Positions 15,871 through 45,388 of a stretch of 56,122 nt of DNA are shown piece after piece. The notes beneath the pieces were generated by a model. That model did not search any database. It had not been told where the DNA came from and saw only the letters and a program-made list of their open reading frames with translations. Source of the stretch: Acidobacteriota bacterium (GTDB taxonomy: Bacteria > Acidobacteriota > Terriglobia > Terriglobales > Acidobacteriaceae); NCBI GenBank assembly GCA_003225175.1, contig QIBA01000061.1, positions 1-56,122 of the forward strand, in the 5' to 3' direction. Numbering within the stretch: the stretch's first letter is position 1; each line of letters begins with the position of its first letter. The position numbers were made by a program, and so were the translations under genes.

Positions 15871-15887
15871 AAGAAGAATTGGTTTAT

Positions 15888-16040: not shown

Positions 16041-16194
16041 TCCCGCTGCAATAGGCGTACAATCGTCGCACTCTTTGAATCGACAAGGAGACTCCGGCTC
16101 TACGGTTATGTTCCGCGGCTTCACTTGACGGTAGTTCCTGCCTGAAGGGCCGGTCCGGTCGTTTCCGTCACCATCCATTGAGGAGCCGCGAGCC

Positions 16195-17226: not shown

Positions 17227-17450
17227 AGCCCAAAATTATTTACGCGAGCGCTTCTTTGCAACGCTGAAGCATTGTTCCCTCGCATGAATTCGGAGGCTCC
17301 CACCTGCAACCTGAATTCGGGGGCTCCCGCTCTTGCCTTTTGGGTGGGAGCCCACGCATTTATGCGTGGGAGAGGCTTTCAAGCCTCGCAAACGCGCGCA
17401 TCCTTCTTTTCCTCCGGCTTTAGCCGTAGGGTTTCAGATCGGGAAGGGTG
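17227..17450. repeat. Hairpin-rich intergenic stretch
   Basis: It contains CCCACGCAT/ATGCGTGGG (about 17351-17370), followed directly by GAGGCTTtcAAGCCTC, and two near-copies of 'gaattcggaggctcccacc'. It is probably another intergenic hairpin repeat family. No gene is seen. Confidence 0.55.
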
Positions 17451-17454
17451 GAGG

Positions 17455-17717
17455 GTGGGTCGATCATGTCAAGATTCCCGCCGCAAATGTGTCCTCGCGC
17501 ATACGCACCCGCAGGACGAACTCGCGACCATCATCGAAGGACCTGGTATGTGGGCGAGGGAACGAAATTCAAATCCACAAAGCTGAAAGGGTACCCCGCG
17601 GGCAGTTTCATTCTCATTCCGGCCGGCGTACCTCATTTTGTTGCGGCGAAGGACGGTACGGTGATCGTTCAGCTCAACGGCAATGGCAAATTTCATACGG
17701 ATTATGTTGAGAAATAG
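17455..17717 (+). pseudogene. Cupin-domain protein, broken by frameshifts
   Basis: Three frames must be joined to read it. HVKIPAANVSS is in one frame at about 17468, AHTHPQDELATIIEG in a second at about 17500-17540, and then WYVGEGTKFKSTKLKGYPAG, SFILIPAGVPHFVAAKDGTV and IVQLNGNGKFHTDYV in the third to the stop at 17717. Joined, these give a normal small single-domain cupin: the HTH..E metal motif and the later PAGVPHF motif are both preserved. The second shift is a one-base loss near 17541. The N-terminus is missing. A sequencing or assembly error could produce this, but two independent shifts favour decay. Confidence 0.7.
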
Positions 17718-17740
17718 GAATTGCCAGGCGGAGTGATGTT

Positions 17741-18775
17741 TTATACGGCGATCCTTCGTAAGGCATATTGATCATCGGCTTTGCGTATTGCCGATTTTGC
17801 TTTTTTCTTGCGCGAGAGATGCCAATCCCATGCTGTTGTCAGGACGGTTTGCAGATCGGAGAACTTGGGATGCCATTCGAGTATTTCGGGAGCCTTGCGT
17901 ACCTGCGCGACCAGCACTGCCGGATCACCGGCACGTCGAGCACAGTTATGTGTACTGATCACTCGGCCAGTTACTTGTTCCGCTGTCGCTATGACTTGGC
18001 GAACGGAATGTCCGCAGCCGGTACCTAAGTTGATGGCAGTGCTCGTTCCGCCGACTTCCAGATATTGCAGTGCGGCCGTATGTGCCGCAGCAAGGTCGGA
18101 GACATGAACGTAATCCCGGATCGCAGTACCATCGGGCGTTGGATAGTCGGTACCATAGATCTCTACCGAAGGACGATTGCTTAGCGCGGTATCAAGAACC
18201 AAGGGGATGAGATGGGTCTCCGGCGTATGGACCTCGCCCAGGTCGCCGTCGGGATCGGCGCCCGCCGCATTGAAATAGCGTAAAGTGACCCATTTCAGCC
18301 CATACGCCTCGCCGTACCATTTCAGCGCTCGCTCGATAAATAGCTTCGACTCACCGTAGGGATTCACCGGCCGTTGTGCATGTTCTTCAGTGATAGGTAC
18401 ACATTCGGGAATTCCATATGTCGCGCAGGTGGAAGAGAAGACGATGCGCCGAACGTCCGCCCTGAGCATGGCGTCGAAAAGAGTAAGCGTATTGACAATG
18501 TTGTTGTGGAAATATTTGCGAGGATCGGTCATCGAGTCGCCGACGTAAGCGTTCGCAGCGAAGTGAATTACCGCGCCGATACGATGTTCAAGCAGCACGC
18601 GCCGGAGCAGCACTGGGTCGCCGACATTTCCTTCCGCAACCGGTCCCCATTGCACAGCCCAGCGATGTCCGGTGCTGAAGTCATCCAGGACAATCGGTTC
18701 ATAGCCGCACTTCGCCAGTGCCTTGGCCGTATGACTGCCGATGTAACCTGCTCCTCCAGTTAACAGAACGCGCAC
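17741..18775 (-). CDS. galE: UDP-glucose 4-epimerase
   Basis: 344 residues. The N-terminal Rossmann motif is GGAGYIGSH, followed by DDFSTGH. The catalytic residues are Ser/Thr in VFSSTCATYG and Tyr/Lys in NPYGESK. The downstream NAAGADPDGDLGE and GTAIRDYVHVSDLA are typical of GalE. It interconverts UDP-glucose and UDP-galactose (or the N-acetyl forms) using bound NAD+. It is the last gene of a nine-gene minus-strand operon, 36 bases after its neighbour. In that setting it would supply a UDP-sugar for the glycosyltransferases of the operon. The C-terminal 20 residues are basic and extend past the usual end. Confidence 0.95.
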   Translation of the reverse strand: MRVLLTGGAGYIGSHTAKALAKCGYEPIVLDDFSTGHRWAVQWGPVAEGNVGDPVLLRRVLLEHRIGAVIHFAANAYVGDSMTDPRKYFHNNIVNTLTLFDAMLRADVRRIVFSSTCATYGIPECVPITEEHAQRPVNPYGESKLFIERALKWYGEAYGLKWVTLRYFNAAGADPDGDLGEVHTPETHLIPLVLDTALSNRPSVEIYGTDYPTPDGTAIRDYVHVSDLAAAHTAALQYLEVGGTSTAINLGTGCGHSVRQVIATAEQVTGRVISTHNCARRAGDPAVLVAQVRKAPEILEWHPKFSDLQTVLTTAWDWHLSRKKKAKSAIRKADDQYALRRIAV

Positions 18776-18811
18776 AATGCCTCCGTGAAATCTAAAGTTA
18801 GCTTGGGATCT

Positions 18812-20032
18812 TTACAACCCCATGACCTGAGTTCTTTCGCGCACGCAAGCTGTCTCTGCGCCTCGTGCAGGTGTCGTCGTAGCGAGAGCGATGTTCAGTA
18901 GGATTTCCATGTTTCGCTTCGCATCAAAGTAAGTTTCTGCAATCTGCCGTGCTGCCCGGCAATGGCGTTCGTAATCAGCATTAATCGCAGCCAAACCGTC
19001 GGCCGCTTCTGCTGCAGTTGAAAAACGAAACATGCCTTCGCCATTGGGCAGGAAGGAGCTTGATCCGGTGTTCTGCACTACTACAGGTTTGCCGCTCGCC
19101 AGATAACAGATAGTCCGATCGCTGATCCAGGCATTCTGGAGCTTCACATAAGATCGTTTGGCGCAACTGAACTCACCACGCGAGCCTTGAATGTAAGCCT
19201 GATATTTTTCCGGCGTGGTGGCAATGTCGCGGGAATCACGGATGTGCCAGCCACGCCGTTCCAGGTCTTTCCATTCCGCCATGTCACGTTCCGTGCGCAT
19301 AAACAGCGCCAGCTCCAGTGGCTGGCTGGTCAATCGCGGCAAATCGGCGAATTCCAGGAAGGCAACACGTTTGGTATTTTCGTAAGCTTCCTCTCCATCC
19401 ACGACCCAATCTGAAGAATCCCAATTTGATACAGTCGTGAAGGCATAGCTGCCGGGGTTAAACACGTAGGGCCAATGCTCAAGAGATACTGGAGGACAAA
19501 AATGAATCCACGGTAAATCGCTCTCGCGAGGTCCGGCAGCCGGTGCGCCGACCGTTTCCCCGATGGTGAAATAGAAATCGTGACGGGGCACGCTGAGCTG
19601 TGCACGACTCATCCAAAACTGCAGCAGTCCGGGATCGATATCCAGCAGTGCCGTGCGCCGGAATTGGGCCAACAGCCCCGGGCTGATGGCGTAGTGGAAA
19701 TTCAACAAGAGGTCTGCTTTAGCAAAAATCGCTTCCGCGTTCGCTCGCGATATATTGAGGTACTCTGTTGGCGCTTCGGGCGACGGTTCTTTATCTCGCG
19801 TGAGATAAAGGATGCACTTCCCGTCCAAGCCATACTGTTGCATCCGCGCGCGAAAGATGGACAGCGCGGCGGCTTCTCGCTCCGCTCGACCTTTGGTGCG
19901 AGAAGCCTCCAGCCAATACACGTCGTGGCCCAAGAGTCGCAGCCCAAGGACATATTGCAGATAGACCCAGAAGTGTCCGCCTCCTTCCGGATAATTCACA
20001 ACGTCGTATGCGGAAATGACAATTGTCGCCAT
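18812..20032 (-). CDS. Glycosyltransferase-like protein (GT-B, CgeB-like)
   Basis: 406 residues and cytosolic. The N-terminal half begins with a strand and a Gly-rich turn (IVISAYDVVNYPEGGGHFWV), with GLRLLGHDVYWLEA as in a GT-B donor/acceptor domain. The C-terminal half has SCAKRSYVKLQNAWISDRTI and CYLASGKPVVVQNTG, with a later GMFRFSTAAEAADGLAAINADY. This arrangement resembles the end of GT-B glycosyltransferases of the CgeB/GT4-like group. I cannot assign a sugar. It sits between the third kinase and galE in the nine-gene operon, 10 bases after the kinase, so it probably uses a GalE-derived UDP-sugar (inference). Confidence 0.75.
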   Translation of the reverse strand: MATIVISAYDVVNYPEGGGHFWVYLQYVLGLRLLGHDVYWLEASRTKGRAEREAAALSIFRARMQQYGLDGKCILYLTRDKEPSPEAPTEYLNISRANAEAIFAKADLLLNFHYAISPGLLAQFRRTALLDIDPGLLQFWMSRAQLSVPRHDFYFTIGETVGAPAAGPRESDLPWIHFCPPVSLEHWPYVFNPGSYAFTTVSNWDSSDWVVDGEEAYENTKRVAFLEFADLPRLTSQPLELALFMRTERDMAEWKDLERRGWHIRDSRDIATTPEKYQAYIQGSRGEFSCAKRSYVKLQNAWISDRTICYLASGKPVVVQNTGSSSFLPNGEGMFRFSTAAEAADGLAAINADYERHCRAARQIAETYFDAKRNMEILLNIALATTTPARGAETACVRERTQVMGL

Positions 20033-20042
20033 TAGCAGACTC

Positions 20043-21020
20043 TCAGATCAGGCCCAATCGCTTGGCTGCTGTGTGCAGATGATCGAATCGCGATAAATTT
20101 TTTTCACGAATTGTCCAATCGGGCTGCTCACCAAGCCAGCGAAAATGCAGATAAATTCGTGCAGCCGCGAACGTGCGCTGAAAGTTGGAGGGCGCACCTT
20201 CAGGCCAGCGTGCGAGCAGGTAAGCATTCTCGCAACTGCTGACAATATTGGCGGGCCAGTGCTTACCTTCCGTCAGCGCGGCTAAATCTATTTCCCCGGC
20301 CGCCACCGCAGCCGATTCCCAGTCCACCATAAAGATGCGATGGTTTCGGAGGAGGACGGTTTTGGCGTAGAACTCGCCATGAATAATAGTAGGTCGCTCT
20401 TGCAAGAGAGGAGCAAACCACTCATCACTGCTGCTTAGTTCGATCAACCAGGGAAAGCGTCCATGCAGGGGACGAGCGAACTCGCACGTGCGGCGCGCCC
20501 AGCCACGGTAGTAATCCTCGTCATACCGTTTCAGGAAAGTGAGTGAAGGATCATTGATGCGGCCTTCATGCGCAGCATGGAATTTCGCGATCCAGCGGGC
20601 TGCATCGGTCATCGCTTCGGGTTGACGTATTGCCCGTTTCCAAACGATGTCGCTCACCCGAACACTGCGATATACATATTCGAGAAACAAGGCAAAGTCG
20701 CCGGTGCGAGGGTCAGCGTGTGCGCCCAGACACCTTGGTCTAAAGCCTGGCAACGTCTGAAGCAGGTGTTGATAGACTTCGATCTCGTAGGGAATATCGC
20801 CGCGGTGTCCGTAAGAATCATGGCCTTGCCCAACCTGATATTTGATAAACACGCGCCTGTTGCGGCCCTCAGGTGACTGAAAGGTGACAATCTCGTTGGG
20901 AAAGGTACTCATGAATGGCGGCAGACTTCTTCTGACGATTCTTAGTGGACGCTGTTCATGCCGGCCGCGACTGAGCGCGGCCGTAAGACGGCTTGCCAAA
21001 GTCTCCAAGTCGGGCAACAT
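20043..21020 (-). CDS. APH-fold phosphotransferase, divergent (third kinase)
   Basis: About 325 residues from the ATG at 21020; a GTG at 21068 would overlap the previous gene by 34 bases. The N-lobe Lys is probably in RRVFIKYQVG. The Brenner motif reads IIHGEFYAKTVLL: His214 is kept, but the catalytic Asp is Glu216 and the metal-binding Asn is Thr221. The DFG-equivalent Asp is kept in FMVDWESAAVAAGEIDLA. APH-fold enzymes phosphorylate hydroxyl groups on antibiotics, choline, sugars or amino acids. With two changed key residues it may be a weak or non-canonical kinase, or a regulatory partner of the two kinases before it. It is part of the nine-gene operon. Confidence 0.82.
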   Translation of the reverse strand: MLPDLETLASRLTAALSRGRHEQRPLRIVRRSLPPFMSTFPNEIVTFQSPEGRNRRVFIKYQVGQGHDSYGHRGDIPYEIEVYQHLLQTLPGFRPRCLGAHADPRTGDFALFLEYVYRSVRVSDIVWKRAIRQPEAMTDAARWIAKFHAAHEGRINDPSLTFLKRYDEDYYRGWARRTCEFARPLHGRFPWLIELSSSDEWFAPLLQERPTIIHGEFYAKTVLLRNHRIFMVDWESAAVAAGEIDLAALTEGKHWPANIVSSCENAYLLARWPEGAPSNFQRTFAAARIYLHFRWLGEQPDWTIREKNLSRFDHLHTAAKRLGLI

Positions 21021-21034
21021 TGAAGTCGGCGTTT

Positions 21035-22096
21035 TCAGGAGGTTGCGACCTGCATCTTGTTTTCGCACGATAGCACCGGTTCAAGATCTTCAAACCATTG
21101 GTCCACTTCGGCCAAAGCTTCCCAGCCCCATGACGCTTGATCCTGCACCAGGGCAATGGCTGGCCAGATAATGCGATTGGCCAAGCGCGCATACTCAGCA
21201 GTTTCGAAAAGGGAATTTAGGTCATCGCTTGATGGCAGGCTCCACCCCCCGCGCGACATTTCTTCGCGATACAATTTCAAAACCCAGGGGCGATCCTCAA
21301 GGGGCAAACGCATGAGAAAAGTCGAAAGATCGTAGCTCGCAGGTCCGACGGCGACATGGTCCCAGTCGATCAGGCGCGCAAGAAGACCTTTTGCCGTAGG
21401 GATGACGAAAACGTTGATGGCCCATAGATCTCCATGCAGCAAAGTCTCCGGGCAGCCGCATTTGTCGAGCATCTGCGCACGCTGCGGAATTTCCCGCCTC
21501 AGGTCATAGAGCCGGTGCAGCAGGCGCTTGTGCAATTGAACATTCTGCGGCGCAGGTTCACAGACCTCGAGCGCGTACATGGCATCGCGCACGTTGGCTT
21601 GGTAAAAGTGAATGCCCAGGTCGCCGCCGTGCAATCGGACTTCTCCAAGCAGCGGATGACAGGCGAACTGTGTGTGCAGGCGGGCGATCATTTTGATTGC
21701 TGCACTGACGCACTCGCGATTGACTTGCTTCTGATTTAGTTCGTAGCAACCCAGGTCATCATAGACATGCCAGACACAATTCCCGTCTGGGTCTGCGACA
21801 CTGCCCAATAACGCTGGACCGTGGTCGCTCATGCCAACGGCAGGCAGCCAGCGTCTATCAATCAGTTCAGTGCGTTGTGCGATCTCGGGCCTCAGGCGCT
21901 TAACTATGAGCTGGCGAGTTTGACCTTTGACAACAAAGCAGAGCCGGAACACGCGCGAACCACGCGGCTGCAAGGTTTGCTGCTCGATGAAGTGCCCGTC
22001 TGCCTCGCGACCGAGCAGCTTCTCCAGCAATCCCCGCAATTCGGTCAGGCCAGGCTGATCATGACCTTCAAGCACTCTCTCCAAACCCTCAATCAC
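21035..22096 (-). CDS. APH-fold phosphotransferase (second kinase)
   Basis: 353 residues from a GTG at 22096, with GGAG six bases upstream. The stop of the previous gene (TAA) ends one base before this start, so translation is likely coupled. The N-lobe Lys is in QLIVKRLRP. The Brenner motif is complete (LLHGDLWAINVF: His221, Asp223, Asn228). The metal-binding Asp is in RLIDWDHVAVGPASYDLSTF. The predicted reaction is ATP-dependent phosphorylation of a small hydroxylated substrate; the identity is unknown. It is one of three tandem kinases in the operon, and the sequences differ enough that each probably has its own substrate. Confidence 0.88.
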   Translation of the reverse strand: MIEGLERVLEGHDQPGLTELRGLLEKLLGREADGHFIEQQTLQPRGSRVFRLCFVVKGQTRQLIVKRLRPEIAQRTELIDRRWLPAVGMSDHGPALLGSVADPDGNCVWHVYDDLGCYELNQKQVNRECVSAAIKMIARLHTQFACHPLLGEVRLHGGDLGIHFYQANVRDAMYALEVCEPAPQNVQLHKRLLHRLYDLRREIPQRAQMLDKCGCPETLLHGDLWAINVFVIPTAKGLLARLIDWDHVAVGPASYDLSTFLMRLPLEDRPWVLKLYREEMSRGGWSLPSSDDLNSLFETAEYARLANRIIWPAIALVQDQASWGWEALAEVDQWFEDLEPVLSCENKMQVATS

Positions 22097-22097
22097 G

Positions 22098-23105
22098 TTA
22101 ACTCCAACGCAAAGCGGTTAGCGCTTTCGGCATAGCGGGTTCGTAAAATCGCAGTGTGGGTATCGCCTTCAGCAGTTGGGCGGGAAGCGCAAACTCCAGC
22201 CCGGCTGTTGCCCAGCTCATTTGATTAATGAGGCGGAGAAGATTGCCACAAGCTGCGACGGCTTCAATGTCGTGTAAATCCAAATGTGGATGCCCACGAT
22301 TTAAGACGGAGCAGTAAATGCTAAGGTCAGGACTTGCTGCGCGATCGATGGATTGAGCTAGATCAGCGGCCGGCAGGCCCCAGCCAGCGAATTCCCAGTC
22401 GAACGCCAGCAGTGCAGGGCCATTATCAGTTTCGCGAATACGCAGATTCTTAATGACGAAATCGCCATGCACGAGCGCCGGCGGCATCAGCTCAGATATT
22501 TTTTCAAGCTCACTCCAATGCGATTCCAAAACATCAAGATGAATGGCGATCTTGCGAAACAGCGCCGTATCCTCGGCCGATAGTGGAGTGCCGTAAAGGG
22601 AATGCACTATCGCCTGGCAATTGCGCAGTAATTGCAGGTAATAGTCGAGTTCGCGATTGGGAAGTAAGGATTTGAAGTCAGCCGCCGCGGTAGTTAACTG
22701 TATTTCCGCCAGCCAATAACCTGCCAACGCGCGGTGATCGGGAAGTTGGGGAGAATAAAAACATCCGGCGGCATCTTCGAGGAAAAGCCAGCAGAAGTCC
22801 CCATCCGGGTCTTCGAGCAGACCATAGCAAGCAAGCACGGGCATCCCCGTGCGAGGTAGGAGTTCCCCAAGGATGAATCGTTCGAGACGCGCCCTTGCTG
22901 TCCGGCATCTCTTGGCGATAACCCCCATGCGATGCTGCGTGGCGTGGTTGAGCCGATAAACGGTGCTGTATCGTCTCCGCTGCAGAACTTCGAGACTTCC
23001 TGGCTCCCAGGAATCCGATTGGAGTTGCAGCCAAGCCTGGACAGCTCGATGCTCTCCCACGCCTTCGGTCAAGACTTCCAGAATCTTATGTCTAGGCATT
23101 GGCAT
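22098..23105 (-). CDS. APH-fold phosphotransferase (first kinase)
   Basis: About 335 residues from the ATG at 23105 (a GGGGA lies just upstream; a second ATG at 23099 is also possible). It overlaps the end of the ATP-grasp gene by 14 bases. The N-lobe has RRRYSTVYRL and GVIAKRCR (Lys). The Brenner motif is ALVHGDFVIKNLRI, with Asp and Asn in place, followed by LLAFDWEFAGWGLPAADLA. The frame upstream to 23177 lies inside the ATP-grasp gene and was discarded. All catalytic residues are present. It has the same role class as its two neighbours, with an unknown substrate. Confidence 0.86.
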   Translation of the reverse strand: MPMPRHKILEVLTEGVGEHRAVQAWLQLQSDSWEPGSLEVLQRRRYSTVYRLNHATQHRMGVIAKRCRTARARLERFILGELLPRTGMPVLACYGLLEDPDGDFCWLFLEDAAGCFYSPQLPDHRALAGYWLAEIQLTTAAADFKSLLPNRELDYYLQLLRNCQAIVHSLYGTPLSAEDTALFRKIAIHLDVLESHWSELEKISELMPPALVHGDFVIKNLRIRETDNGPALLAFDWEFAGWGLPAADLAQSIDRAASPDLSIYCSVLNRGHPHLDLHDIEAVAACGNLLRLINQMSWATAGLEFALPAQLLKAIPTLRFYEPAMPKALTALRWS

Positions 23106-23958
23106 GGGTCCCCGCGACAGCCATGTGACTGCTTTGCGGCGCCAGTTCTCCCCGTGCAGCACGCTCGGCGGCGGCATAGAAGTACTGCGCTAACAAGTGC
23201 GGTGCATCCGGAACACCCTTGAAACCCGGAATGCTGCACATATCTACGACATACGGTATTCCTCCACTCTCGATAACATCCACACCGTATAAGTCGAGAC
23301 CGAATGCGCGACCGCAGCGCAGGGCAATTTCACGTAACTCGGGCGAGAGCACGAAGGGTTCTCCCCGTTTTTCGTCTTCAGTCCGGCGGGGAAAAATCTT
23401 CTTTACTCCATAGAGTCGGCCGCCAATCGCGTAGATCTTCCGATCAACGCCATCGTTGGCATGAAAGCGCTGGGCAAACGCGGGCTCGCGGCCGCAATTC
23501 ACCTGGGAAAGCTCAGCTGGGGATCGAATGATACGAACGTGATGGCCGCCTGTCCCCTGATACGGCTTGATGATGAGCGGCCCTGAGTCGAGCAGCGGAA
23601 GCAATTGAACAGGTTGCGATGCAACGTAGGTGGCAGGTGTAGGGATGCCCGAAGCCTGCAGGATTCGCGAAACGATGATCTTGTCGCGCAGGATCGCGGA
23701 AGTCGGGTACGGATTCACGATGACGGCACCCAACTCATGGAGCGCTCCCGACAAGCTGAGCGAGAGCCCGCTCGTGTGCCGCAGAACGTACAGGTCGTGT
23801 TCGACGCGGACTTGCGAGAGATCGAGCATCCCATGAACCGGATGGATGATGTCAGTAATTGCGCCGTATTCTGCCAGCAACTGCACCACGGCGGGCATGA
23901 AGCTCCGGCTCTTCTCGGAGTAATGTGGCAACAGGAACCCAATGCGCAATTTCTTCAT
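23092..23958 (-). CDS. ATP-grasp ligase, RimK-like
   Basis: About 288 residues, started at the ATG at 23958 (MKKLRIGFLLPHYSEKSR) because the preceding residues in the frame overlap the ABC gene end. The ATP-grasp fold shows LRDKIIVSRILQASGIPTPA (A-domain to B-domain helix), the nucleotide-binding strand PLIIKPYQGTGGHHV (Lys plus Gly loop), the RKIYAIGGRLYGVKK strand, and YGVDVIESGGIPYVVDM then CSIPGF. In most RimK or D-Ala ligase relatives the last motif is VxEVNxxPG; here it is VVDMCSIPG, so one metal ligand is Asp and the Asn is replaced. It should form an amide or ester from a carboxylate via acyl phosphate. The gap to the ABC gene is 10 bases. Confidence 0.85.
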   Translation of the reverse strand: MKKLRIGFLLPHYSEKSRSFMPAVVQLLAEYGAITDIIHPVHGMLDLSQVRVEHDLYVLRHTSGLSLSLSGALHELGAVIVNPYPTSAILRDKIIVSRILQASGIPTPATYVASQPVQLLPLLDSGPLIIKPYQGTGGHHVRIIRSPAELSQVNCGREPAFAQRFHANDGVDRKIYAIGGRLYGVKKIFPRRTEDEKRGEPFVLSPELREIALRCGRAFGLDLYGVDVIESGGIPYVVDMCSIPGFKGVPDAPHLLAQYFYAAAERAARGELAPQSSHMAVAGTHANA

Positions 23959-23968
23959 AATCACGCTT

Positions 23969-25771
23969 TCACACCTGCAACACGGCCCGCGTACCTGGCT
24001 CAACCCCAACAAGCCTGCCCTTTTCGATCCTTACAACCACGTCGCACTGCTGCAATGCACTGGGCCGGTGAGTGATGACAAACGTTGTCCGTCCGCGAGC
24101 GAGCCGTTCCAACGCGTCCAAAATGGCAGCTTCGGTTTTCATGTCAACGGAACTGGTTGGCTCATCCAGAATCAGAATGGGCGCGTCCTTCAGGAACGCC
24201 CGCGCAATCGAAATGCGCTGGCGTTCGCCGCCGGAAAGGCGCATGCCGCGTTCGCCAACAACTGTTTCATAACTGCGTGGCAGGCCGAGAATGAAATCGT
24301 GCGCATTGGCAGCCTGGGCCGCAGCCATGATCTCCGCTTGGCTAGCGTTGGAACGGGCATACGCAATATTCTCGGCGATGCTGGTTGAAAATAGCACCGG
24401 CTCCTGAAGAACAATTGCGAACTGATTGCGCAAATCGGAAACCTTATAATCGCGAAGGTCCACACCATCGAGCAGGATTTCTCCCTGGCTGGGATCGTAG
24501 AAGCGAGTCAGCAAATTCACTAGTGTGGTTTTTCCTGCGCCGGTGGTTCCGATAATCCCGATGCAGCTGCCGGGGTATGCCTCAAACGATATGTCTTCAA
24601 GCACCAGTCGATCGTCATAAGCGAACGATACGTGACGAAATGTCATCGCACCTGAAGTTCGTACTAGTGGCCGTGCGAAGGGGCGCTCGAGCACATCGGG
24701 CGCTTCGTCCAGAAGCGCGAATGCGCGCTCGGCGCCAACAAAGTAGGTCTGCATGCTGGCCATTTTCTTGCCGATTGTCCGCAAAGGGCCGTAGACCTGA
24801 CTCAAATAGCCCATCACTAATAGCAGACTGCCCAGCGTCAATTCTCCCGCTTTGATATCGTGCACGCCGATGTACAGCACAGTGGCCATGCCCATTGCTG
24901 TTAGGAATGCAAGCACAATCCCATAACTGCCCTGCAGTTTTTCCTGGTAAAGGCGCTCTCGCATTCCTTCGTTCGATCTATGCATAAAGCGGTCATGCTC
25001 ACGCTGCTCTTGTCCAAATGCCCTCACCACTCGAACCGAACCCAACACTTCTTGCACCACAGATAAGGCAGAACTCTCGATGTTCCTGACTTTTCGCGAT
25101 TGTCTCCGCATTCTTCGCCGGTAGAAGCTCGAAGCCACTAACACTAGTGGTGAAATTGCCAACCCAACTAGCGCAAATTTCCAACTGATGCGCGCTGTGA
25201 CGTAAATCATGGCAATCAGCGTGATAGCTGACGAGAAAAACGGCACAATTCCGATGACGACGATATTTTGTAAGGCCGTGGCGTCGTACTGAATCCGGTA
25301 AAGGGAATCGGCAGTACCCTGAGTATCGTGATATGACAACGACAGTCGCTGCACGTGACGGAAGAGCTTGGCGCGAAACTGCCGAAGAATTTTTTCTCCT
25401 GTATAAGCTGTAAGAAACGAGGCGCCGAACTCCCGAAGCTGGTTCGCTAAGGCAACCGTCACCAAGAGGACGATGGCCAAAAACAGCAAAGAGTGCGCCG
25501 AACCTTTTACGGACGAGGGCAGCAGCGCCGTGAGGAAATGCGGCAGGGGACGCGAGCCAATCACATTGTCGACTGCAATCTTCAGGGGCAGGGGGACCAG
25601 CAGCGCCAGTGGAGCTCCGAGCAAACTCACTAAAAACAGAACCGCCAAATGACCGGAGTAGGGCCGCATCTCAAGCCACAGGCGCCAAATATTGGAAGAC
25701 ACGCGATTGGTTCTGACGAACTGCGCCGGTTTTCCGGCGGATGGTCGATATGTGCGCTCCTCTGGACTCAT
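23969..25771 (-). CDS. ABC exporter, fused membrane and ATPase domains (MsbA-like)
   Basis: 600 residues, the usual length for a half-transporter that works as a homodimer. Six TM helices lie in residues 40-310. The nucleotide-binding domain has Walker A GTTGAGKTT (408-416), the Q-loop VLQEPVLF, the signature LSGGERQR (512-519), Walker B ILILDEPTS with catalytic Glu537, and the H-loop His in FVITHRPS. It exports lipid-linked, peptide or glycolipid products in relatives. Within the operon it follows the TonB receptor and precedes the ATP-grasp/kinase block, so it is the natural candidate to move the product across the inner membrane (inference). Confidence 0.94.
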   Translation of the reverse strand: MSPEERTYRPSAGKPAQFVRTNRVSSNIWRLWLEMRPYSGHLAVLFLVSLLGAPLALLVPLPLKIAVDNVIGSRPLPHFLTALLPSSVKGSAHSLLFLAIVLLVTVALANQLREFGASFLTAYTGEKILRQFRAKLFRHVQRLSLSYHDTQGTADSLYRIQYDATALQNIVVIGIVPFFSSAITLIAMIYVTARISWKFALVGLAISPLVLVASSFYRRRMRRQSRKVRNIESSALSVVQEVLGSVRVVRAFGQEQREHDRFMHRSNEGMRERLYQEKLQGSYGIVLAFLTAMGMATVLYIGVHDIKAGELTLGSLLLVMGYLSQVYGPLRTIGKKMASMQTYFVGAERAFALLDEAPDVLERPFARPLVRTSGAMTFRHVSFAYDDRLVLEDISFEAYPGSCIGIIGTTGAGKTTLVNLLTRFYDPSQGEILLDGVDLRDYKVSDLRNQFAIVLQEPVLFSTSIAENIAYARSNASQAEIMAAAQAANAHDFILGLPRSYETVVGERGMRLSGGERQRISIARAFLKDAPILILDEPTSSVDMKTEAAILDALERLARGRTTFVITHRPSALQQCDVVVRIEKGRLVGVEPGTRAVLQV

Positions 25772-25800
25772 TAGAAACTCGAAACCGATAGCCGGTTGGA

Positions 25801-28377
25801 CTATCGCCGAAAAATGTATCTAACCGACAACTGAATGGTCCTCGCTTCCAGTGCCGAATTGGCGCGGCCGAAGAAAGGCGAGCTCAACACTCCCACAATG
25901 CCGTTGATGTTGGTGTGGTTGATCGCGTTAAATGCATCCACACTGAATTCAAGGCTGTTCCGTTTGAGCTTTGCACGCTGCTCGCCCCACAGCAGCGGAA
26001 CACTGAAACTCTTGGTAAAACGCAGATCAAGTTGTGTGCTTCCGGGTCCGCGTCCGGTGTTGCGAGTCACGCCAGCTGGACGATCATTCGCCACCGTATC
26101 GCCGTTATTGTCAAATCCCGTTGTGATGTTGAATGGCGCGGCACTCATCGCCGAAAGTACTAATCCAAGCCGGCACGCCCACGGCAGCGTTACTGCTCCC
26201 ATGAGGTTGAAGCGATGCCTCCAATCGAAATCTGCTGGTCCGATTTCCGGTCGCAAGTCGTAGCTGTTGGCTGGCAATGAAAAAATCCCGTCGGTGTTGT
26301 TCGTGGTGTTAGAGAAGACATACTGAGCGTAGGGTTCAAAGAACTTTCCCAATCGTCCGCGGAAGGTGACGGTCAGGGAGTGGCTGCGCTCGAAAGCGCT
26401 CGACTCGACCTGATTGATATTCAGAAAGTTCGGGTCTGGGCGCACTTCTGTCTGCGGGAACGGCGCGTTAATGTTGCGCGAACGAAAAAGATGCGTTCCA
26501 TGGAGGAAGGAGTATTCCACGGTGAGCGAGTTCTTATGCCAGAGCTCTTGCTCAACACCAACACTTGTCTGCGACAGGTAAGGAGCCTGTAGATCCGGCG
26601 CAACACGGATGATACTCGGTGCTGGCGTAATTGTTTCACCTGTCAAAAATGGGTTCGGGAACGAGGGATTCGAGATCACTAGTTCACGCAGTCGAGCGCC
26701 GTCATAGAGCAGCGACTGCTCAGTGGCCGACCCCGGTAAGTTATCGTAGAAAATTCCCGCTCCGCCACGAATAACGGTCTTCTTACTCTTTCCTGGACTG
26801 AAAGCGAACGCAAATCGGGGAGCAAAATTATTGCGGTTGTCGATCGTAGATTGCCAGTCATAGCGCAGTCCAAAGGTAAGCGTAAGTTGGGGTGTTGCTT
26901 GTACTTCATCCTGAACAAACCCGTTAGCCACAAGCACGCTGAATCCGATATTCGGATCGCCTCGAACAATATGGAACAGAAAAGGATTGCCAGCCGCATA
27001 CTCTCCAAGGCTAGCGAACTCGAAGCTTCCTCCGAAGTTCGATGCATCAAATGCATCGATGAGATTTGTCCGAAGTCTCGCACCGAATGTAGCTACGTGT
27101 TTGCCGTGACCGTAGTAAACGGTGTCCTGAAGATCGAAGTTGCGCCTGTCATCGTGGGTAAATACTTGAGACGGTCCCGCGGTAAACGCGTCATTGACGA
27201 TGACGGCGGGATTAGCAGCCGCATTCCCAATCTGGTCATTGTCATGCGTGAAACTGAACCGGAGATCGTTGCGCAAGTTCGCCGGAATCATCGCGCTGTA
27301 ATCCAGGGTTACGCTATGTTTCTGGCGTCCGTCATGTACTCCCTGTTCAGGTAAATTAAAACCTCCGACAGTCTTGTTGTGATACGTATGATCTGTAAAA
27401 GTGTAGGTAGCGTAAAGAGTGTGAAGCGGGCTAACCCACCATTGCATGCGGGCGAAAATGTTGTCTCGATGCTGAGTCGTGGGAACATTCGCAACGAGTG
27501 GACCCGCAAGTGTTACGGCATTGACAATCGCGTCCTGGTCCAACATCGAGCGCTCAGCAGAGATATAGAAGGAGGAAGATTTCCCGAGGAGCGGCCCACC
27601 AAGATTGGCCTGTACGAGTCTGCGATCCAAATCCGGGGCAAATTTCGCAAAGGCATTCCGCGCGTCGAAAAGAGAGTTCCTGTCATACATGGCCAGACCG
27701 CCGTCGTAACGCTTTCTGTGTCCATGTTCGGTAGTGACTTCGACCTTCGCTTTTCCAGGATGCTGGAACAGAGCGGAGTAAGGATTACGGTCAATCCTAA
27801 TTTTTCTGATCGCCGAGGCCGGCAGATCGATCGAGTTCCCTTCTACTCCATCGATGATGATGGAGAGCCCCTCAGTTCCCTGCGCGGGCGGCGACGCGAA
27901 TTTCTCAATCAGTGGCAGAACGTCGTCGGAGAGTGTTGGGAGCTTACGAAGCAAATCATCATCCACTCTCGTCGTAGCCGCATCGCTGTCAGATGTCGAG
28001 AGTTCATCCGCGCTGTCGGCATTGACGTTGACTTGTTCTTTTGCTGCTTCGATTTTTAGAGTTATCTTCAGCGGCTTCCACGTTTGGGAGCCGACTGAAA
28101 CGGACTTTTGATAAGCCTCGAAACCCTTCATCTCCACTTTCAAGACGTAGTCGCCCTGAGAGACGTCGTTGAGACTGAAGGTTCCATCCTCTCCGGAAGT
28201 ACTCTTTTTTATCTCATTGGTGTCTTGTCGGATTAGGCTCACCTTCGCGCCCGCAATAGTGGCCCCGCTGCCATCTTCGATGACGCCGGTAATAGTCAGA
28301 CTCGCTTGGCCGACGACAATCTTGGAAAAGATCAGCATCGCAGCTAAAACGCCCACGCATGAATGGAAACGGAACAT
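25801..28377 (-). CDS. TonB-dependent receptor, Oar-like, with regulatory N-domain
   Basis: About 858 residues from the ATG at 28377, which follows a purine-rich AAGGGGCAGGG. The signal peptide is MFRFHSCVGVLAAMLIFSKI. A carboxypeptidase-regulatory-like beta domain (ITGVIEDGSGATIAGAKVSL, then GDYVLKVEMKGF) covers about residues 25-110. A plug-like region follows (LSIIIDGVEGNSIDLPASAI), then a 22-strand-type barrel ending AINHTNINGIVGVL and LEARTIQLSVRYIFRR. Such receptors import large substrates at the outer membrane with TonB energy, and Oar in myxobacteria is implicated in export of a signal protein. Lying second in the operon, it may import or release the product made by the other eight genes. 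Confidence 0.9.
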   Translation of the reverse strand: MFRFHSCVGVLAAMLIFSKIVVGQASLTITGVIEDGSGATIAGAKVSLIRQDTNEIKKSTSGEDGTFSLNDVSQGDYVLKVEMKGFEAYQKSVSVGSQTWKPLKITLKIEAAKEQVNVNADSADELSTSDSDAATTRVDDDLLRKLPTLSDDVLPLIEKFASPPAQGTEGLSIIIDGVEGNSIDLPASAIRKIRIDRNPYSALFQHPGKAKVEVTTEHGHRKRYDGGLAMYDRNSLFDARNAFAKFAPDLDRRLVQANLGGPLLGKSSSFYISAERSMLDQDAIVNAVTLAGPLVANVPTTQHRDNIFARMQWWVSPLHTLYATYTFTDHTYHNKTVGGFNLPEQGVHDGRQKHSVTLDYSAMIPANLRNDLRFSFTHDNDQIGNAAANPAVIVNDAFTAGPSQVFTHDDRRNFDLQDTVYYGHGKHVATFGARLRTNLIDAFDASNFGGSFEFASLGEYAAGNPFLFHIVRGDPNIGFSVLVANGFVQDEVQATPQLTLTFGLRYDWQSTIDNRNNFAPRFAFAFSPGKSKKTVIRGGAGIFYDNLPGSATEQSLLYDGARLRELVISNPSFPNPFLTGETITPAPSIIRVAPDLQAPYLSQTSVGVEQELWHKNSLTVEYSFLHGTHLFRSRNINAPFPQTEVRPDPNFLNINQVESSAFERSHSLTVTFRGRLGKFFEPYAQYVFSNTTNNTDGIFSLPANSYDLRPEIGPADFDWRHRFNLMGAVTLPWACRLGLVLSAMSAAPFNITTGFDNNGDTVANDRPAGVTRNTGRGPGSTQLDLRFTKSFSVPLLWGEQRAKLKRNSLEFSVDAFNAINHTNINGIVGVLSSPFFGRANSALEARTIQLSVRYIFRR

Positions 28378-28381
28378 GGTG

Positions 28382-31018
28382 TTACCCTGCCCCTTGGCGA
28401 AGCGATTTCTTCGCCGCGGCTGTTTCACCAGGAACAGTTGTTGCAGGCCTGACTCGAAGCTTGCCGGTTGCCGGCACTATTTCTGCGAGTTTCAGGTTGG
28501 GAACCGCCGCAGCTCTCGCCGCCCGCTCTTCAGCCACAACTGGGCTCAAGAGGGCCCCGGTTGCAGCCGCACATTCTTGAAGTCCTCGTGCGGCAACAAT
28601 CATTGCCATTGCGGCGAGGATGGCCGCACCTGCCCACGCTCGATGCAATGCCGCGCCCGTGGAAAAACCGCAAAATAAAACAACGAGCGCAATTGCTCCG
28701 GCCGAAGGCTTGGGCCATACACGAAATCTGACCAATTGCCGTCCCATTCCGTGTTCTTCCACCGCCATCCGTAAGCGGGCCGCGCCGAGGAGATTTGGCC
28801 GTACTTCGAGGTCCCAGCGGTCGAAGTCACCACCTGGGAGTACGCACGCTCCATCTGCCCGCAGACCTGATTTGATGGATTGCAGTCTTTCGTTGGGAGC
28901 GCGCCAATGCTCGTTCCAAATTCGGAAATTGCGCGGCCACGGAAATGCCATGACGGATGGACCACGCCTTCGCCATAAAGTCAGTCCGCAACCAAGCCGT
29001 CCATAGAGGCGGGCCGCCGGCTGGAGCACGTGCAGAAAAGTAATCAACACACGGAGTCTCATCTGAGGAATTCCAGGTCGAGCGGCGCGCGTGATCTTAG
29101 TCCGTGCCGCGCTCAAATACGACTGGAGTACCGGTATAGCAACTGCGAGGGCAAGAAAAGGCAGCGCGAACAGCAGAGGGTTCCAGAGTTTACCGATACC
29201 AGATAATGCAGCAAAACCTGGAATCAGCAAATACCACTCGGGCATTAGCGGCAGCGCTGAAAGCGTGCCGTGTGCCGGCTGGTAAATGGATTGAAATGGC
29301 GCGCTGCCCCACACGCCCTGATAAATTCGTGTTCTTCGCAAGAGCCCGTGTACATGGCCGTTACCATAGACTCGCCCACTCCAGCTCACGTGTCCGGCTG
29401 TGTTGTATTTATCCGGCCACTTGGCTTCCAGCAACGCTTCGGCTTTCCCATATCCTCGCTGCTGTTTCCAATATGCGCGCACTGAGCCGCGTCGGTGATG
29501 CCACACCATGGCTGCTGGACAGAATCCCAGTTTTCGGCCGCTTTGCTTCAAACGCCAGCACACATCGACGTCATCGCCGGCAACTCTGAACTGGGAATCG
29601 AATCCGCCAATTGCCACCAACTCGGACTTGCGGAATGCCATGTTGCATCCGGGAATGTGTTCTGCCTCACTGTCGGAAATAAGGACATGCACCGGACCTC
29701 CAGGCGCATTGGCAATGCACTCCGCGATTAACCGAGTGCCAGTTGGCGCGATGTTTGGTCCTCCGACAGCCGCGAAATCGGTGGACATGAAAGTGCGCGC
29801 AAGGTATGAGAGCCACTGAGGATCTGGATAAGCATCGTCATCGAGATAGGCGACAATTTCCCCGCGGGCCGCTTGCAATCCGGTATTTCGCGCACTGCTC
29901 AGCCCGCGATTCGGAGTGCTGATCACGCGAAAGCCATACTCGCGAGCCAGGGCTGCCGAATCATCCACCGAGCCGTCATCTACGACGATCACTTCAAAGT
30001 TTGGATAATCGACCCTCCTTAAACCTTCACAGCACTCCCGGATGGTGCGCGACCCGTTGTAAGTACAGACCACTACTGATATGTGAGGCAAGGATACGTC
30101 TGGCGAAAATGGACTTTGAGAGAACGCTTCGCGCACAGCCGCTAAAGCGGGCTTCGGCGACCTGTCACGGCCGGTGAGACCGAACTCCCAATCCTCAGCT
30201 TCGGCACCGCCTCTAAACCATTCATCCGTCCAGGAGTAAACGAAGACGCCAGCGCAGCCGGCTTCGAAGGCTGTACGAATTTCCCAATCGAGTACGCGTG
30301 CTTGGGTCTCTTTGCCATTGCGAAAGCTATCCAAGCCAATCTCCCCCATAAGCAGGGGAGCGTCACCCGCGATGTTCTGTAACCGACCCAAATAGGCCGC
30401 GAATTGCTCCTGCGATTCGAGGTAAACGTTGAAGCAGAAAAAATCCAGGAAGGGTAACTGCAGATATTCAGTAGAGGGATAGTTGACGTATGTAACAATG
30501 CCGGCTGGATCTTCGGCCTTTACGACCTGATAAAGTTTTTGGAGGTATCTCTCCACTCTATGGCGCCCGTGCCACCGCACGATCGCTGCTGGAATTTCAT
30601 TTCCCAGCGAGTAGGCAAGAATGGCTGGATGCCCAGCGTAGGAACGCACCTCCTCACGAAAGATCTCGGCAATATCTGGCGCGCCGTTTCGGTCCGAAAG
30701 AAAGCCAATGTATTGATCGGCGGAAAGGTCGATAACAACACGAAGATGATGCTGTTGAGCTATGTTGAGTAACGAGCATGGCGGCGTGTTATAGACCCGG
30801 ACAGCGTTGATGCCATTCGCCGACATCAACGCAAAATCGCTCTGAACTCTTTCTAAATTGTGATACTGATTTCCAGTTTCATCGGGGCGAAATGTTCCGT
30901 AAGTCACACCGCGGACGTATAACTTCTCGTCTCCAATCCAAATAAACTTGCCTTGCACACGCGGGCGGACCTCCGCACGAATCAATGGTGAGAACCGGAA
31001 GGCGACTCGTTCGTACAT
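28382..31018 (-). CDS. Glycoside hydrolase (GH2/5-like barrel) fused to GT2 glycosyltransferase
   Basis: 878 residues. Residues about 22-300 form a TIM-barrel hydrolase of the GH-A clan, with acid/base Glu141 in YSLGNEIPAA, nucleophile Glu226 in LLMGEIGLDS and a barrel strand FCFNVYLES. Residues about 310-560 form a GT2 domain: SVVVCTYNGSRTI, VVDDGS (347-350), the DxD-type YLDDDAYPDP (393-395), CNMAFRK, and GGFDSQFRVAGDDVDVCWRL. Two hydrophobic regions (about 595-633 and 773-812) suggest membrane anchoring. The hydrolase and transferase are in one chain with both active sites intact. It is the first gene of the operon. From memory, similar fusions occur in other phyla annotated simply as glycosyltransferases; I know no characterised member. 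Confidence 0.88.
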   Translation of the reverse strand: MYERVAFRFSPLIRAEVRPRVQGKFIWIGDEKLYVRGVTYGTFRPDETGNQYHNLERVQSDFALMSANGINAVRVYNTPPCSLLNIAQQHHLRVVIDLSADQYIGFLSDRNGAPDIAEIFREEVRSYAGHPAILAYSLGNEIPAAIVRWHGRHRVERYLQKLYQVVKAEDPAGIVTYVNYPSTEYLQLPFLDFFCFNVYLESQEQFAAYLGRLQNIAGDAPLLMGEIGLDSFRNGKETQARVLDWEIRTAFEAGCAGVFVYSWTDEWFRGGAEAEDWEFGLTGRDRSPKPALAAVREAFSQSPFSPDVSLPHISVVVCTYNGSRTIRECCEGLRRVDYPNFEVIVVDDGSVDDSAALAREYGFRVISTPNRGLSSARNTGLQAARGEIVAYLDDDAYPDPQWLSYLARTFMSTDFAAVGGPNIAPTGTRLIAECIANAPGGPVHVLISDSEAEHIPGCNMAFRKSELVAIGGFDSQFRVAGDDVDVCWRLKQSGRKLGFCPAAMVWHHRRGSVRAYWKQQRGYGKAEALLEAKWPDKYNTAGHVSWSGRVYGNGHVHGLLRRTRIYQGVWGSAPFQSIYQPAHGTLSALPLMPEWYLLIPGFAALSGIGKLWNPLLFALPFLALAVAIPVLQSYLSAARTKITRAARPGIPQMRLRVLITFLHVLQPAARLYGRLGCGLTLWRRRGPSVMAFPWPRNFRIWNEHWRAPNERLQSIKSGLRADGACVLPGGDFDRWDLEVRPNLLGAARLRMAVEEHGMGRQLVRFRVWPKPSAGAIALVVLFCGFSTGAALHRAWAGAAILAAMAMIVAARGLQECAAATGALLSPVVAEERAARAAAVPNLKLAEIVPATGKLRVRPATTVPGETAAAKKSLRQGAG

Positions 31019-31668
31019 GAGTACTGCTCTTGGAATCCCGTTTTGGTCCTGTTGGATCGGATTCTGACTTAGCTTTGACCTACTTAAATAGGCGACGAGT
31101 GCTGCTCGGTCTTAAGCTATGGATTCGGCAACCGCTTTTGGGGAACGGACTGGCGAGCTTTGCAAAGTTGACGCGGCGCGCCCAGAAACCCCGCATTTTG
31201 GTGCAAAGCTGAAATACAAGTCAAGGGGTAAAACTTAACAAAATGGTAACCTTGCGATGTCACTTGAATAAGTGGAAGTCAAAGTATGCCGCCATGTTCT
31301 TGTGATGCACCTTCGGCATGTGCAACACTTTGCACATTCATGATCGCGCGACTCACCCCAACTTAAAAGCCAACCAGAGCGCAATCATGACACGCGTCGT
31401 GATCGGCTGATCAAGACGCCGTGGCGCAAGAATCAATGCCCGCACTGCAGAAGATTGCGATCTACAGACAACCCTGCGCCTGGCTTTTGACTGGTAATCA
31501 CGATTGGGATTACCGAACTTAATCACCTTTAAAAAATTCCGCGATAATGTTTCATTCCATAGCTAAAGCGACTCGTCATGAGCGCTGATCGGCAGCTCTC
31601 CTCTCCACCATTTCTTTTAGGCGAGTCTTAGCCAGCCGTACCGTTCGATCATCGCCGGCATCATTCCA
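31019..31668. other. Upstream region of the nine-gene operon
   Basis: About 650 bases with no convincing gene; the short frames present lack ribosome-binding sites and domains. The sequence is AT-richer around 31205-31350 and 31490-31560. A near-perfect operator-like inverted repeat lies at 31318-31337. The promoter of the operon is expected somewhere in this stretch. Confidence 0.5.
31318..31337. promoter_or_regulatory. Operator-like 8-bp inverted repeat
   Basis: ATGTGCAA and TTGCACAT are separated by four bases (cact). It lies 300 bases before the first gene of the nine-gene operon. The symmetry and 4-nt spacer resemble a site for a dimeric helix-turn-helix regulator. No regulator gene is adjacent. 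Confidence 0.45.
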
Positions 31669-32155
31669 GGTAGAGCAACGGATTCAGCATGAACCTGGCC
31701 TAATTCACTGCTGTGCACGGAACAGCGAATTTATCAGCGAATTTAACAGCGAATTTTTTCACAAAAGGGCGGCGAGCAACGGACGATTCCGCGCAACCGC
31801 CTGCCCGCGAAGGGATTACGGAAGTTCGCGATTTTTCCCCGCCACAAAGAACAGTGAATAACAGTGAATAAGCAGTGAATTCTGAAATTCGCATCCGTTG
31901 CTCGCGCCAGCGTCGGATGGTTGCGGCAAGCACTCTCCCACAGCCGCGCGAGTTCCAAAATGAAATTTCACGTTGACTCGAAATCTTGACTCGTGGTAGC
32001 ACCGAACTAGCTTCGGTGCTGAGGCAGGTTCGGTGCTGGAGGATGGCCGCTCCGGAGATGACAATCCCGACCGCGTAACTCCCGCAACCACAGCCGTCTT
32101 CGCCCTGATCATGCACAACCATCCGCCGGCGACGCCTTCAACCGCGGAGGCACAG
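31669..32155. repeat. Long intergenic repeat, copy B (most complete)
   Basis: It starts at 'ggtagagcaacggattcagc' and includes three near-tandem 'cagcgaattta' units (about 31723-31760), three 'cagtgaata' units (about 31852-31880), the 'gactcgtggtagcaccgaac' segment and the 'tcttcgccctgatcatgcac' end. It shares its first 420 bases with copy C and its last 310 with copy A. It joins directly to the SDR pseudogene that follows. Confidence 0.85.
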
Positions 32156-32455
32156 GTCTTTGACCAGATGCTGGCGCGCAATCTGCGCTCCGGCTAACTG
32201 TTATTGCGCACCGCAGTGCCGCTGATGCTGAAACAAGGGAGCGGAGTGGTCGTCAACATCGCCTCTCGCTCAGCACTCGATCATGCAGCCGGAACGGCTG
32301 CATATGCCGCGTCCAAGGCCACTGCCGTCGCCATGATTGACTCCTTGGCAGCCGATCTCAGAGGCACCGGTGTGCGCGCAAATTGCGTCCTTCCGGGCAT
32401 TATCGACACCGCCGCCAACCGAAAAGCGATGCCCGGCGCTGACTTCTCCAAGTGG
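32156..32455 (+). pseudogene. Truncated duplicate of the SDR gene at 1658-2389
   Basis: It is nearly identical at nucleotide level to 1991-2290 of the intact gene. The protein traces are VFDQMLARNLRSG, a stop, then AVPLMLKQGSGVVVNIASRS, LDHAAGTAAYAASKATAVAM and ANCVLPGIIDTAANRKAMPG. The N-terminal half is missing because about 460 bases (equivalent to 1531-1990) were lost between the repeat and this point. The C-terminal end is replaced by the reverse-strand GtrA gene at 32455. The catalytic YxxxK remains, but no start or full fold does. Confidence 0.88.
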
Positions 32456-45387: not shown

Positions 45388-45388
45388 C

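Follow-up and report, generated by a model that had tools for sequence, protein, structure and literature searches.

A candidate modular cassette for glycan synthesis and export, centered on a glycoside hydrolase-GT2 fusion protein

Known systems and the acidobacterial locus

According to the available part of the source (PMC10901819), every soluble domain of the cyclic β-1,2-glucan synthase Cgs is cytoplasmic and the glucan is exported by Cgt. In the pseudomonad NdvB/Orphan GH17-GT2 cyclic β-1,3-glucan synthases, the GH17 domain is mostly predicted to be periplasmic, and a few Pseudomonas syringae forms are predicted to be cytoplasmic (available part of PMC10237404). The 56,122-nucleotide stretch of DNA analyzed here (the window; contig QIBA01000061.1 of an Acidobacteriota bacterium) contains nine minus-strand genes at positions 17741 to 31018. 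They very probably represent a modular glycan cassette with a core of three proteins, a glycoside hydrolase (GH)-GT2 fusion, a GT-B-fold glycosyltransferase, and an MsbA-type ABC exporter, which would synthesize and export a glycan, either free or lipid linked. The evidence, all of it read from sequence, consists of the gene content, its conservation and co-occurrence across genomes, the catalytic residues, and the folds. The general kind of system, a synthase with a dedicated ABC exporter, is already known; what appears to be new is the use of other enzyme families and of a GT-B partner that has no family name.

The short names GHGT2, TBDR, GRASP, K1, K2, K3, and GTB were coined in this analysis, and ABC denotes the exporter gene. 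The core genes are as follows.

28382 to 31018, minus strand: GHGT2, clan GH-A TIM barrel (residues about 20 to 300) followed by a GT2 domain (about 310 to 540); Pfam PF02836 and PF00535
23969 to 25771, minus strand: ABC, MsbA-type exporter half-transporter; PF00664 and PF00005
18812 to 20032, minus strand: GTB, GT-B-fold glycosyltransferase, assigned from an AF2 model and PDB fold matches; no Pfam or NCBIfam family

GHGT2 resembles Cgs in that one membrane protein joins glycosyltransferase and sugar-processing domains, apparently on the cytoplasmic side, and is accompanied by a dedicated exporter (available part of PMC10901819). However, Cgs is built of GT84, cyclase, and GH94 phosphorylase domains, whereas in GHGT2 a clan GH-A TIM barrel is joined to GT2, and Pfam gives no match to GH94. 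GTB and the accessory genes have no Cgs/Cgt counterpart in the available part of PMC10901819. Like the GH17-GT2 synthases (PMC10237404, available part), GHGT2 has a TIM barrel at the N terminus and a GT2 domain C-terminal to it, but its barrel matches GH2_C/GH157, and GH17 is not among the families listed. LaGH157, solved with β-1,3-gluco-oligosaccharides, differs in that its 537-residue solved chain has no GT2 domain, whereas the GHGT2 barrel is fused to one. The MsbA lipid A exporter and the PglK lipid-linked oligosaccharide flippase have the same ABC architecture as the cassette exporter, which falls below the cut-offs of both. No description of this gene set was found among the papers listed in the literature searched, which is weak evidence, as most subscription journals were outside its coverage.

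The GHGT2 fusion

The GT2 domain of GHGT2 matches PF00535 at 1.6e-32 and is followed by hydrophobic helices with a small β domain between them. In the AF2 model (pLDDT, 84.9; pTM, 0.84), long hydrophobic helices likewise come after GT2, and the protein matches PDB entries by both fold and sequence. In the alignment of 58 fusions, 4 of which are truncated in the GH domain, 53 of the 54 rows without a gap at that position have E141, and 55 of 57 have E226. D393 and D395 are conserved in all 58 rows, and D482 and D483, as well as Q519-Q520, in 57 of 57. We take the two glutamates and four aspartates to be the catalytic positions on the strength of known family motifs and, for the hydrolase, of the alignment as well. 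Their near invariance suggests that both activities are under selection. The TIM barrel with two catalytic glutamates is that of a clan GH-A retaining glycosidase, and the DxD metal site with a downstream acidic catalytic motif is that of a GT2 enzyme.

By sequence, the closest solved relative of the GH domain is LaGH157 (7e-17), which also matches in fold and has both glutamates aligned. E226 lies opposite E224 of LaGH157, and the structure of the E224A variant (9g4n) contains laminaritriose. Weaker matches include GH2 glucuronidases, GH2 galactosidases, and the glucanosyltransferase GAS2, and Pfam shows a weak match to GH72. The GH2 β-sandwich domains were not found ahead of the barrel, which begins near residue 20, and PF02836 was the sole GH2 model matched. 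The top NCBIfam match of the GT2 domain is MftF (TIGR03965), with 158.9 bits against a cut-off of 280; a mycofactocin-type pathway was rejected because this cut-off is not reached.

Hydropathy shows no membrane segment ahead of GT2 in 57 of the 58 fusions, and the family-mean peaks come only after GT2. The lone transmembrane (TM)-like stretch ahead of this domain is in L084, where the start is possibly over-extended. No signal or membrane segment precedes the GHGT2 barrel, in contrast to the GH17-GT2 hydrolase, which is preceded by a signal peptide and three TM helices and is predicted to be periplasmic (available part of PMC10237404). GHGT2 likewise shows no TM helices between its GH and GT2 domains, a feature of the GH17-GT2 synthases. 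Since no TM segment precedes GT2 and the helices of the predicted model follow it, the GH and GT2 domains most likely share the cytoplasmic face of the membrane.

Two GHGT2 homologs from Acidobacteriota family f55 (L195, positions 928 to 4800, and L206, positions 10032 to 13913) carry an additional C-terminal propeller of the NHL/teneurin type. Plasmid records contain no GHGT2 match at 1e-40.

The exporter and GTB

The exporter consists of a membrane domain and an ATPase with Walker A, LSGG, and Walker B motifs. It scores 420.9 bits against the MsbA model TIGR02203 (cut-off, 602) and 155 bits against the PglK model (cut-off, 1000). Apart from galE, none of the nine genes reaches a curated NCBIfam cut-off (among the best 25 of 190 rows for the exporter and 25 of 29 for GHGT2).

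The AF2 model of GTB is of moderate quality (pLDDT, 70.8; pTM, 0.77) and contains two Rossmann-like domains. Foldseek comparison with the PDB retrieves tll1591 (E value, 1.5e-10), as well as PimA and BshA, at TM-scores of about 0.5, and the closest folds are GT-B enzymes that use UDP-glucose. GTB, which is presumably GT4-like, matches no known GT family model in sequence, and a PDB sequence search returned no match for it. In the Bacteroidota member Pleomorphovibrio marinus (L083, positions 14269 to 22466), a single cassette contains five GTB genes with a pyruvyl-transferase-like gene among them.

Distribution of the core

In a search of 100 genomes, those of close relatives and that of the window itself, with usually 9 candidates scored in each, full-length GHGT2 is found in only one other genome, G090, which has three copies. 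In G053, from the window's own family, a partial GHGT2 at a contig edge adjoins GTB and the start of an exporter; the five congeners yielded no full-length GHGT2.

A wider survey covered 396 genomes spread evenly over the Acidobacteriota (G000 included), with 2 to 4 candidates per genome, so that it counts genomes rather than copies. At thresholds of 1e-15 for GTB and 1e-80 for GHGT2, each is found in 27 of the 396 genomes and both in 26 (Fisher's P = 2e-38, the genomes not being independent). Each of the two lists spans 25 of 211 genera.

The cross-phylum scan, with one genome per species and 84,980 species, returned at least 80 loci. At least 29 of these (L073 to L101) were taken as GHGT2 relatives by coverage, and 51 others that match around the GT2 domain alone were excluded. 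The 29 listed loci are labeled Gemmatimonadota, Nitrospirota, Chloroflexota, Latescibacterota, Pseudomonadota, Eiseniibacteriota, Planctomycetota, Bacteroidota, Thermodesulfobacteriota, Verrucomicrobiota, Sumerlaeota, Myxococcota, and Acidobacteriota, with one archaeal bin; most scan loci come from metagenome bins, and phylum labels may be wrong. Named carriers are Singulisphaera acidiphila DSM 18658, Pleomorphovibrio marinus SW125, Fundidesulfovibrio agrisoli SG106, and Methylacidimicrobium tartarophylax 4A, which makes the function of the cassette open to experimental testing. Whole-genome searches found GTB in all 10 non-acidobacterial genomes picked from these loci, in three of them (those of L085, L092, and L098) outside the DNA first examined.

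Gene neighborhoods

Neighbors were counted with profiles built from the window genes around 60 GHGT2 genes scoring above 250 bits (window included), within 10 kb and at 150 bits or more. The exporter, the counterpart of the dedicated exporter of Cgs/Cgt, is found near 43 of the 60 and GTB near 41; galE follows with 7, K1 and K2 with 6 each, K3 with 5, and TBDR and GRASP with 4 each, some contigs ending early. Without the 150-bit limit, the counts are 45 for the exporter, 11 for galE, and 6 for TBDR. Downstream of GHGT2, the nearest gene of these families within 1.2 kb is the exporter in 29 cases, TBDR or GTB in 3 each, K1 in 2, and another GT2-type match in 2; 17 genes have none and 4 lie at a contig edge. 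The 29 listed scan loci were found through GHGT2 alone, and 20 of them have the exporter, 16 GTB, 6 galE, 4 K2, 3 K1, and 2 GRASP. Fifteen of the 29 have all three core genes together, and these 15 loci bear 12 phylum labels. A chance cluster of unrelated genes was rejected on the strength of such conservation across genomes.

Variants were compared over 69 loci, made up of the window, all 29 scan loci, and a further 39 chosen through GHGT2 or GTB matches. The nearest unit is L041, in genome G090 of another family, with GHGT2, TBDR, ABC, GRASP, K1, K2, K3, and GTB in the same order at 53 to 74% identity. G090 encodes three cassette versions (L039, L040, and L041) that differ in their accessory genes. 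Gemmatimonadota L073 contains GHGT2, a single frame for ABC and K1, GRASP, a pair of GTB genes, and K2, and L080 has this set as far as its contig end, except for K2. K3 is found in 6 of the 69 loci (window, L039, L041, L208, L185, and L187), and all four loci with a strong TBDR (the first four of these) carry K3 as well.

The original prediction treated the nine genes as one pathway and named their conserved co-occurrence and order in other genomes as the check. The expected co-occurrence holds across phyla for GHGT2, the exporter, and GTB, but the kinases and ATP-grasp are confined to few loci. Gene order is conserved once, for eight of the nine genes in L041, whereas most relatives have no accessory genes nearby. 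One pathway of nine parts is too rigid a reading, as kinases, ATP-grasp, TBDR, and galE come and go; an obligate nine-gene set was rejected, with each of these genes found near 4 to 7 of the 60 GHGT2 genes.

Outside the nine families, there are 148 same-strand neighbors, of which 104 were scanned with Pfam. The commonest families are GT1/GT4 (12 proteins), YdjC (7), GT2 (6), and PIG-L (6), followed by sulfotransferases and methyltransferases (4 each) and pyruvyl transferases (2). The commonest neighbors are thus sugar genes, with YdjC and PIG-L being deacetylases, and many of the 104 match nothing listed or unrelated families such as histidine biosynthesis and FG-GAP proteins. Wzx, Wzy, and OPX, components of Wzx/Wzy- or KpsMT-type polysaccharide pathways, are absent from the neighbor families listed (25 of 67 for the 104 neighbors; 22 of 22 and 25 of 34 for subsets of 24 and 35), which include one ABC2_membrane_2 protein in one locus.

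Accessory genes and layout of the putative operon

The six remaining genes of the cassette are as follows.

25801 to 28428, minus strand: TBDR, TonB-dependent-receptor-like outer-membrane protein; PF25183, PF13620, and PF00593
23092 to 24012, minus strand: GRASP, RimK-like ATP-grasp protein; PF08443 (3.6e-12)
22098 to 23177, minus strand: K1, APH-fold kinase; PF01636 (2.1e-10)
21035 to 22096, minus strand: K2, APH-fold kinase; PF01636 (1.2e-9)
20043 to 21068, minus strand: K3, divergent APH-fold protein; profile matches to K1 and K2
17741 to 18775, minus strand: galE, cassette-type UDP-glucose 4-epimerase GalE; TIGR01179 (410 bits, above the cut-off of 262)

The order of transcription is GHGT2, TBDR, ABC, GRASP, K1, K2, K3, GTB, and galE, with intergenic gaps of -47, +29, -44, -86, +1, -34, +10, and +36 bases. 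This tight packing bears out the coordinates and spacing predicted originally, namely nine minus-strand genes with gaps of 36 bases or less, several overlapping (-86 to +36). Comparison with L041 indicates that the listed starts of K1 and GRASP are probably too far upstream and should lie near 23099 and 23958, and an internal ATG places the TBDR start, probably also listed too far upstream, near 28377. The genes almost touch even after these three corrections. Terminator-like sites (15 versus 19.0 in shuffles) and promoter-like sites (5 versus 9.5) show no excess over positions 16500 to 33900 and are uninformative either way; Rfam gave no match at gathering scores.

Most of the original domain labels (galE, two APH kinases, RimK-like ATP-grasp, ABC, β-barrel, and GH/GT2) agree with Pfam and NCBIfam. 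K3 and GTB have no Pfam or NCBIfam match of their own at an E value of 0.01, and their labels draw support from elsewhere: the GT-B-like label from the predicted-structure match to GT-B structures, and the third-kinase label from profile comparison and from relatives that match APH.

TBDR carries an N-terminal carboxypeptidase-regulatory domain and has homologs scoring above 1200 bits in cassettes L039, L041, and L208. GRASP is 74 to 75% identical to its L041 counterpart and 57% identical to that of Gemmatimonadota L073; its closest PDB match is a probable α-L-glutamate ligase (2.2e-10), and it touches inositol-phosphate kinase profiles too. Against the RimK model TIGR00768, it scores 55.1 bits, far below the cut-off of 143, and the carboxylate ligation and phosphorylated product proposed originally are best read as inferences.

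K1 retains the HGDxxxxN motif and K2 the HGDLWxxN motif, each in 7 of 7 aligned rows, which makes phosphate transfer by these proteins plausible. A PDB sequence search with K2 returned no match. ABC and K1 homologs occupy one reading frame in L073, L080, and L181, and in L073 Pfam detects both domains. The profile-profile probability for K3 is 98.2% to K1 and 93.3% to K2, and 3 of 5 members of its family match Pfam APH at an E value of 0.1 or better (top value, 1.5e-11); its one PDB sequence match has an E value of 0.21. In 4 of 5 aligned rows of K3, HGE replaces HGD, and the next Asn is Thr in the window and L041, so K3 is possibly an altered or inactive kinase. Weak matches of A1 to LGI1 and others were taken as chance.

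GalE is 54 to 63% identical to the galE products adjoining L077, L078, L084, L085, and L094 but only 45 to 49% identical to three other galE-like products of its own genome, so it seems to belong to the cassette.

Proposed pathway and alternatives

As the GH and GT2 domains of GHGT2 appear to lie on the cytoplasmic face, as in Cgs/Cgt, the reading that we tentatively favor, at somewhat short of even chances, is synthesis and export of a free oligosaccharide: GHGT2 makes the chain, its GH domain sets the size or closes the chain, further enzymes decorate it, and the exporter releases it. In this scheme, GalE would supply UDP-galactose, and the GT2 domain of membrane-bound GHGT2 would elongate the chain on the cytoplasmic face. 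On the same side, the GH domain would trim, transfer, or close the chain in a retaining reaction, either transglycosylation or hydrolysis, and thereby release a product of set size. Additional sugars would be attached by GTB, K1 and K2 could add phosphate or activate sugars, and the ATP-grasp protein could add a carboxyl- or amino-acid-type group. The MsbA/Cgt-type exporter, with K1 acting beside it, would then move the finished oligosaccharide across the inner membrane, and at the surface the outer-membrane receptor may act on the product or on a cognate molecule. The whole would work in the manner of Cgs/Cgt with different enzyme families. Topology, the free or lipid-linked state of the product, its cyclic or linear form, its modifications, and the role of the receptor are what we infer here.

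Several observations weigh against this reading. The topology rests on hydropathy and a model built without a membrane, and 4 of the 58 aligned fusions have a truncated GH domain. This domain could also serve in quality control as a hydrolase and be neither a cyclase nor a transferase. MsbA-type exporters move lipids too, and the best 60 of the exporter's 138 PDB rows include MsbA and Sav1866 and none named Cgt. A strong exporter match is missing in 9 of the 29 listed scan loci; two of these (L091 and L099) are at contig edges, and seven (L086, L088, L089, L090, L097, L100, and L101; six of them Verrucomicrobiota) have at least 2.9 kb of downstream DNA. A further 8 of 31 other GHGT2 genes also have no exporter within 10 kb, some at contig edges. 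GTB was not in the examined DNA of 13 of the 29 scan loci. Among the surveyed Acidobacteriota, G377 (75% complete) has GTB without GHGT2, with GTB, exporter, K1, and K2 together, and in G250 (85% complete) GHGT2 is matched in part and GTB is missing. For the kinase, ATP-grasp, and receptor steps, the supporting loci are few (4 to 6 of the 60 GHGT2 loci).

A glycolipid pathway, in which GHGT2 and GTB build the glycan on an inner-leaflet lipid, ABC flips it in the way that MsbA flips lipid A or PglK a lipid-linked oligosaccharide, and the accessory proteins decorate the head group, is possible though doubtful. The exporter's 421 bits to the MsbA model and its MsbA structure matches fit such a role, but the score is under the cut-off of 602. 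GHGT2 appears membrane anchored by hydropathy and its model, and the fold matches of GTB include the phosphatidylinositol mannosyltransferase PimA; however, families of polyprenyl-phosphate sugar transferases, lipid acyltransferases, and ligases are all missing from the neighbor families listed.

It is unlikely that two or more unrelated functions are combined in one transcript, namely a glycan core (GHGT2, GTB, ABC, and galE) and a set for sugar uptake and salvage, consisting of TBDR and of APH kinases that form sugar phosphates. The near-random scatter of kinase and ATP-grasp genes on the GHGT2 tree (see below) would agree with it, as would the lower identity to L041 of GHGT2 (54%) and TBDR (53%) than of the remaining genes (62 to 75%), but K1 and the exporter share a reading frame at three loci, and eight genes keep their order in the genome of another family (G090). 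A role in glycosylating a peptide or protein for export, of the kind known from glycosylated RiPPs, with the ATP-grasp and kinases as modifying enzymes and ABC as the secretion system, is very unlikely: MftF is the top NCBIfam match of the GT2 domain (159 bits) and a RimK-like ATP-grasp is present, but the MftF cut-off of 280 is not reached, no peptide-maturation family is among the neighbor families listed, and no precursor was recognized among small upstream open reading frames (ORFs), for which no systematic precursor search was made.

For the cassette version with TBDR, the favored free-oligosaccharide pathway could be extended to send-and-recapture, in which a phosphorylated, acid-bearing oligosaccharide is exported and taken up again with a cargo, such as a metal, through its own receptor. 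This extension is quite improbable; if true, the cassette would make a sugar-based shuttle and not a capsule. Hydrolase and transferase activities kept together on the same face of the membrane would bear on how glycan chain length is set in bacteria in the absence of Wzy/Wzz-type control. The three-protein core under 12 phylum labels, combined with swappable decorating genes, suggests a general route of glycan assembly and export that is uncharacterized in the literature searched.

Modularity and signs of transfer

Among the 69 loci, ABC, GRASP, K1, K2, K3, and GTB of the window are closest to L041, at 63 to 75% (62 to 75%) identity. GHGT2 is closest to Gemmatimonadota L073 (60%), compared with 54% for the L041 copy, and TBDR is 53% identical to its L041 counterpart. 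A quick tree of the 58 fusions, with 26 of 55 inner branches starred, places the window in a group of eight with SH-aLRT support of 99 that includes Chloroflexota, Gemmatimonadota, Bacteroidota, Pseudomonadota, and other Acidobacteriota rows, and shows signs of transfer between phyla. Presence of a kinase or ATP-grasp gene requires 8 changes on this tree, against a shuffled mean of 9.4, which is near random, with cut contigs blurring the count; these genes therefore seem to come and go. A mosaic build of this kind resembles O-antigen and capsule loci.

The GC content of the cassette (54.7%) shows no shift from that of the left (56.4%) and right (54.9%) flanks, so composition neither favors nor rules out import. 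Between 32457 and 34760, two pieces of the window are matched by DNA of the congener G004; the similarity ends at 32457, which is 1.4 kb short of the cassette.

Flanking regions

Upstream of the operon (31018 to 32497), about 1.2 kb contains no ORF resembling a gene. A plus-strand fragment at 32204 to 32497, whose translation resembles a short-chain dehydrogenase, is possibly a remnant at an insertion junction. Genes for a CDP-alcohol phosphatidyltransferase and a GtrA-type membrane protein adjoin at 32270 to 33741 (minus strand), perhaps as a separate lipid or polyprenyl-sugar unit; this DNA and the adjoining dehydrogenase are conserved in G004. Farther away, plus-strand genes at 42000 to 49749 encode a ChrB-like protein, a DUF1259 protein, an outer-membrane efflux protein, an AcrB-type pump, and an HlyD-type fusion protein, and may form a metal efflux operon.

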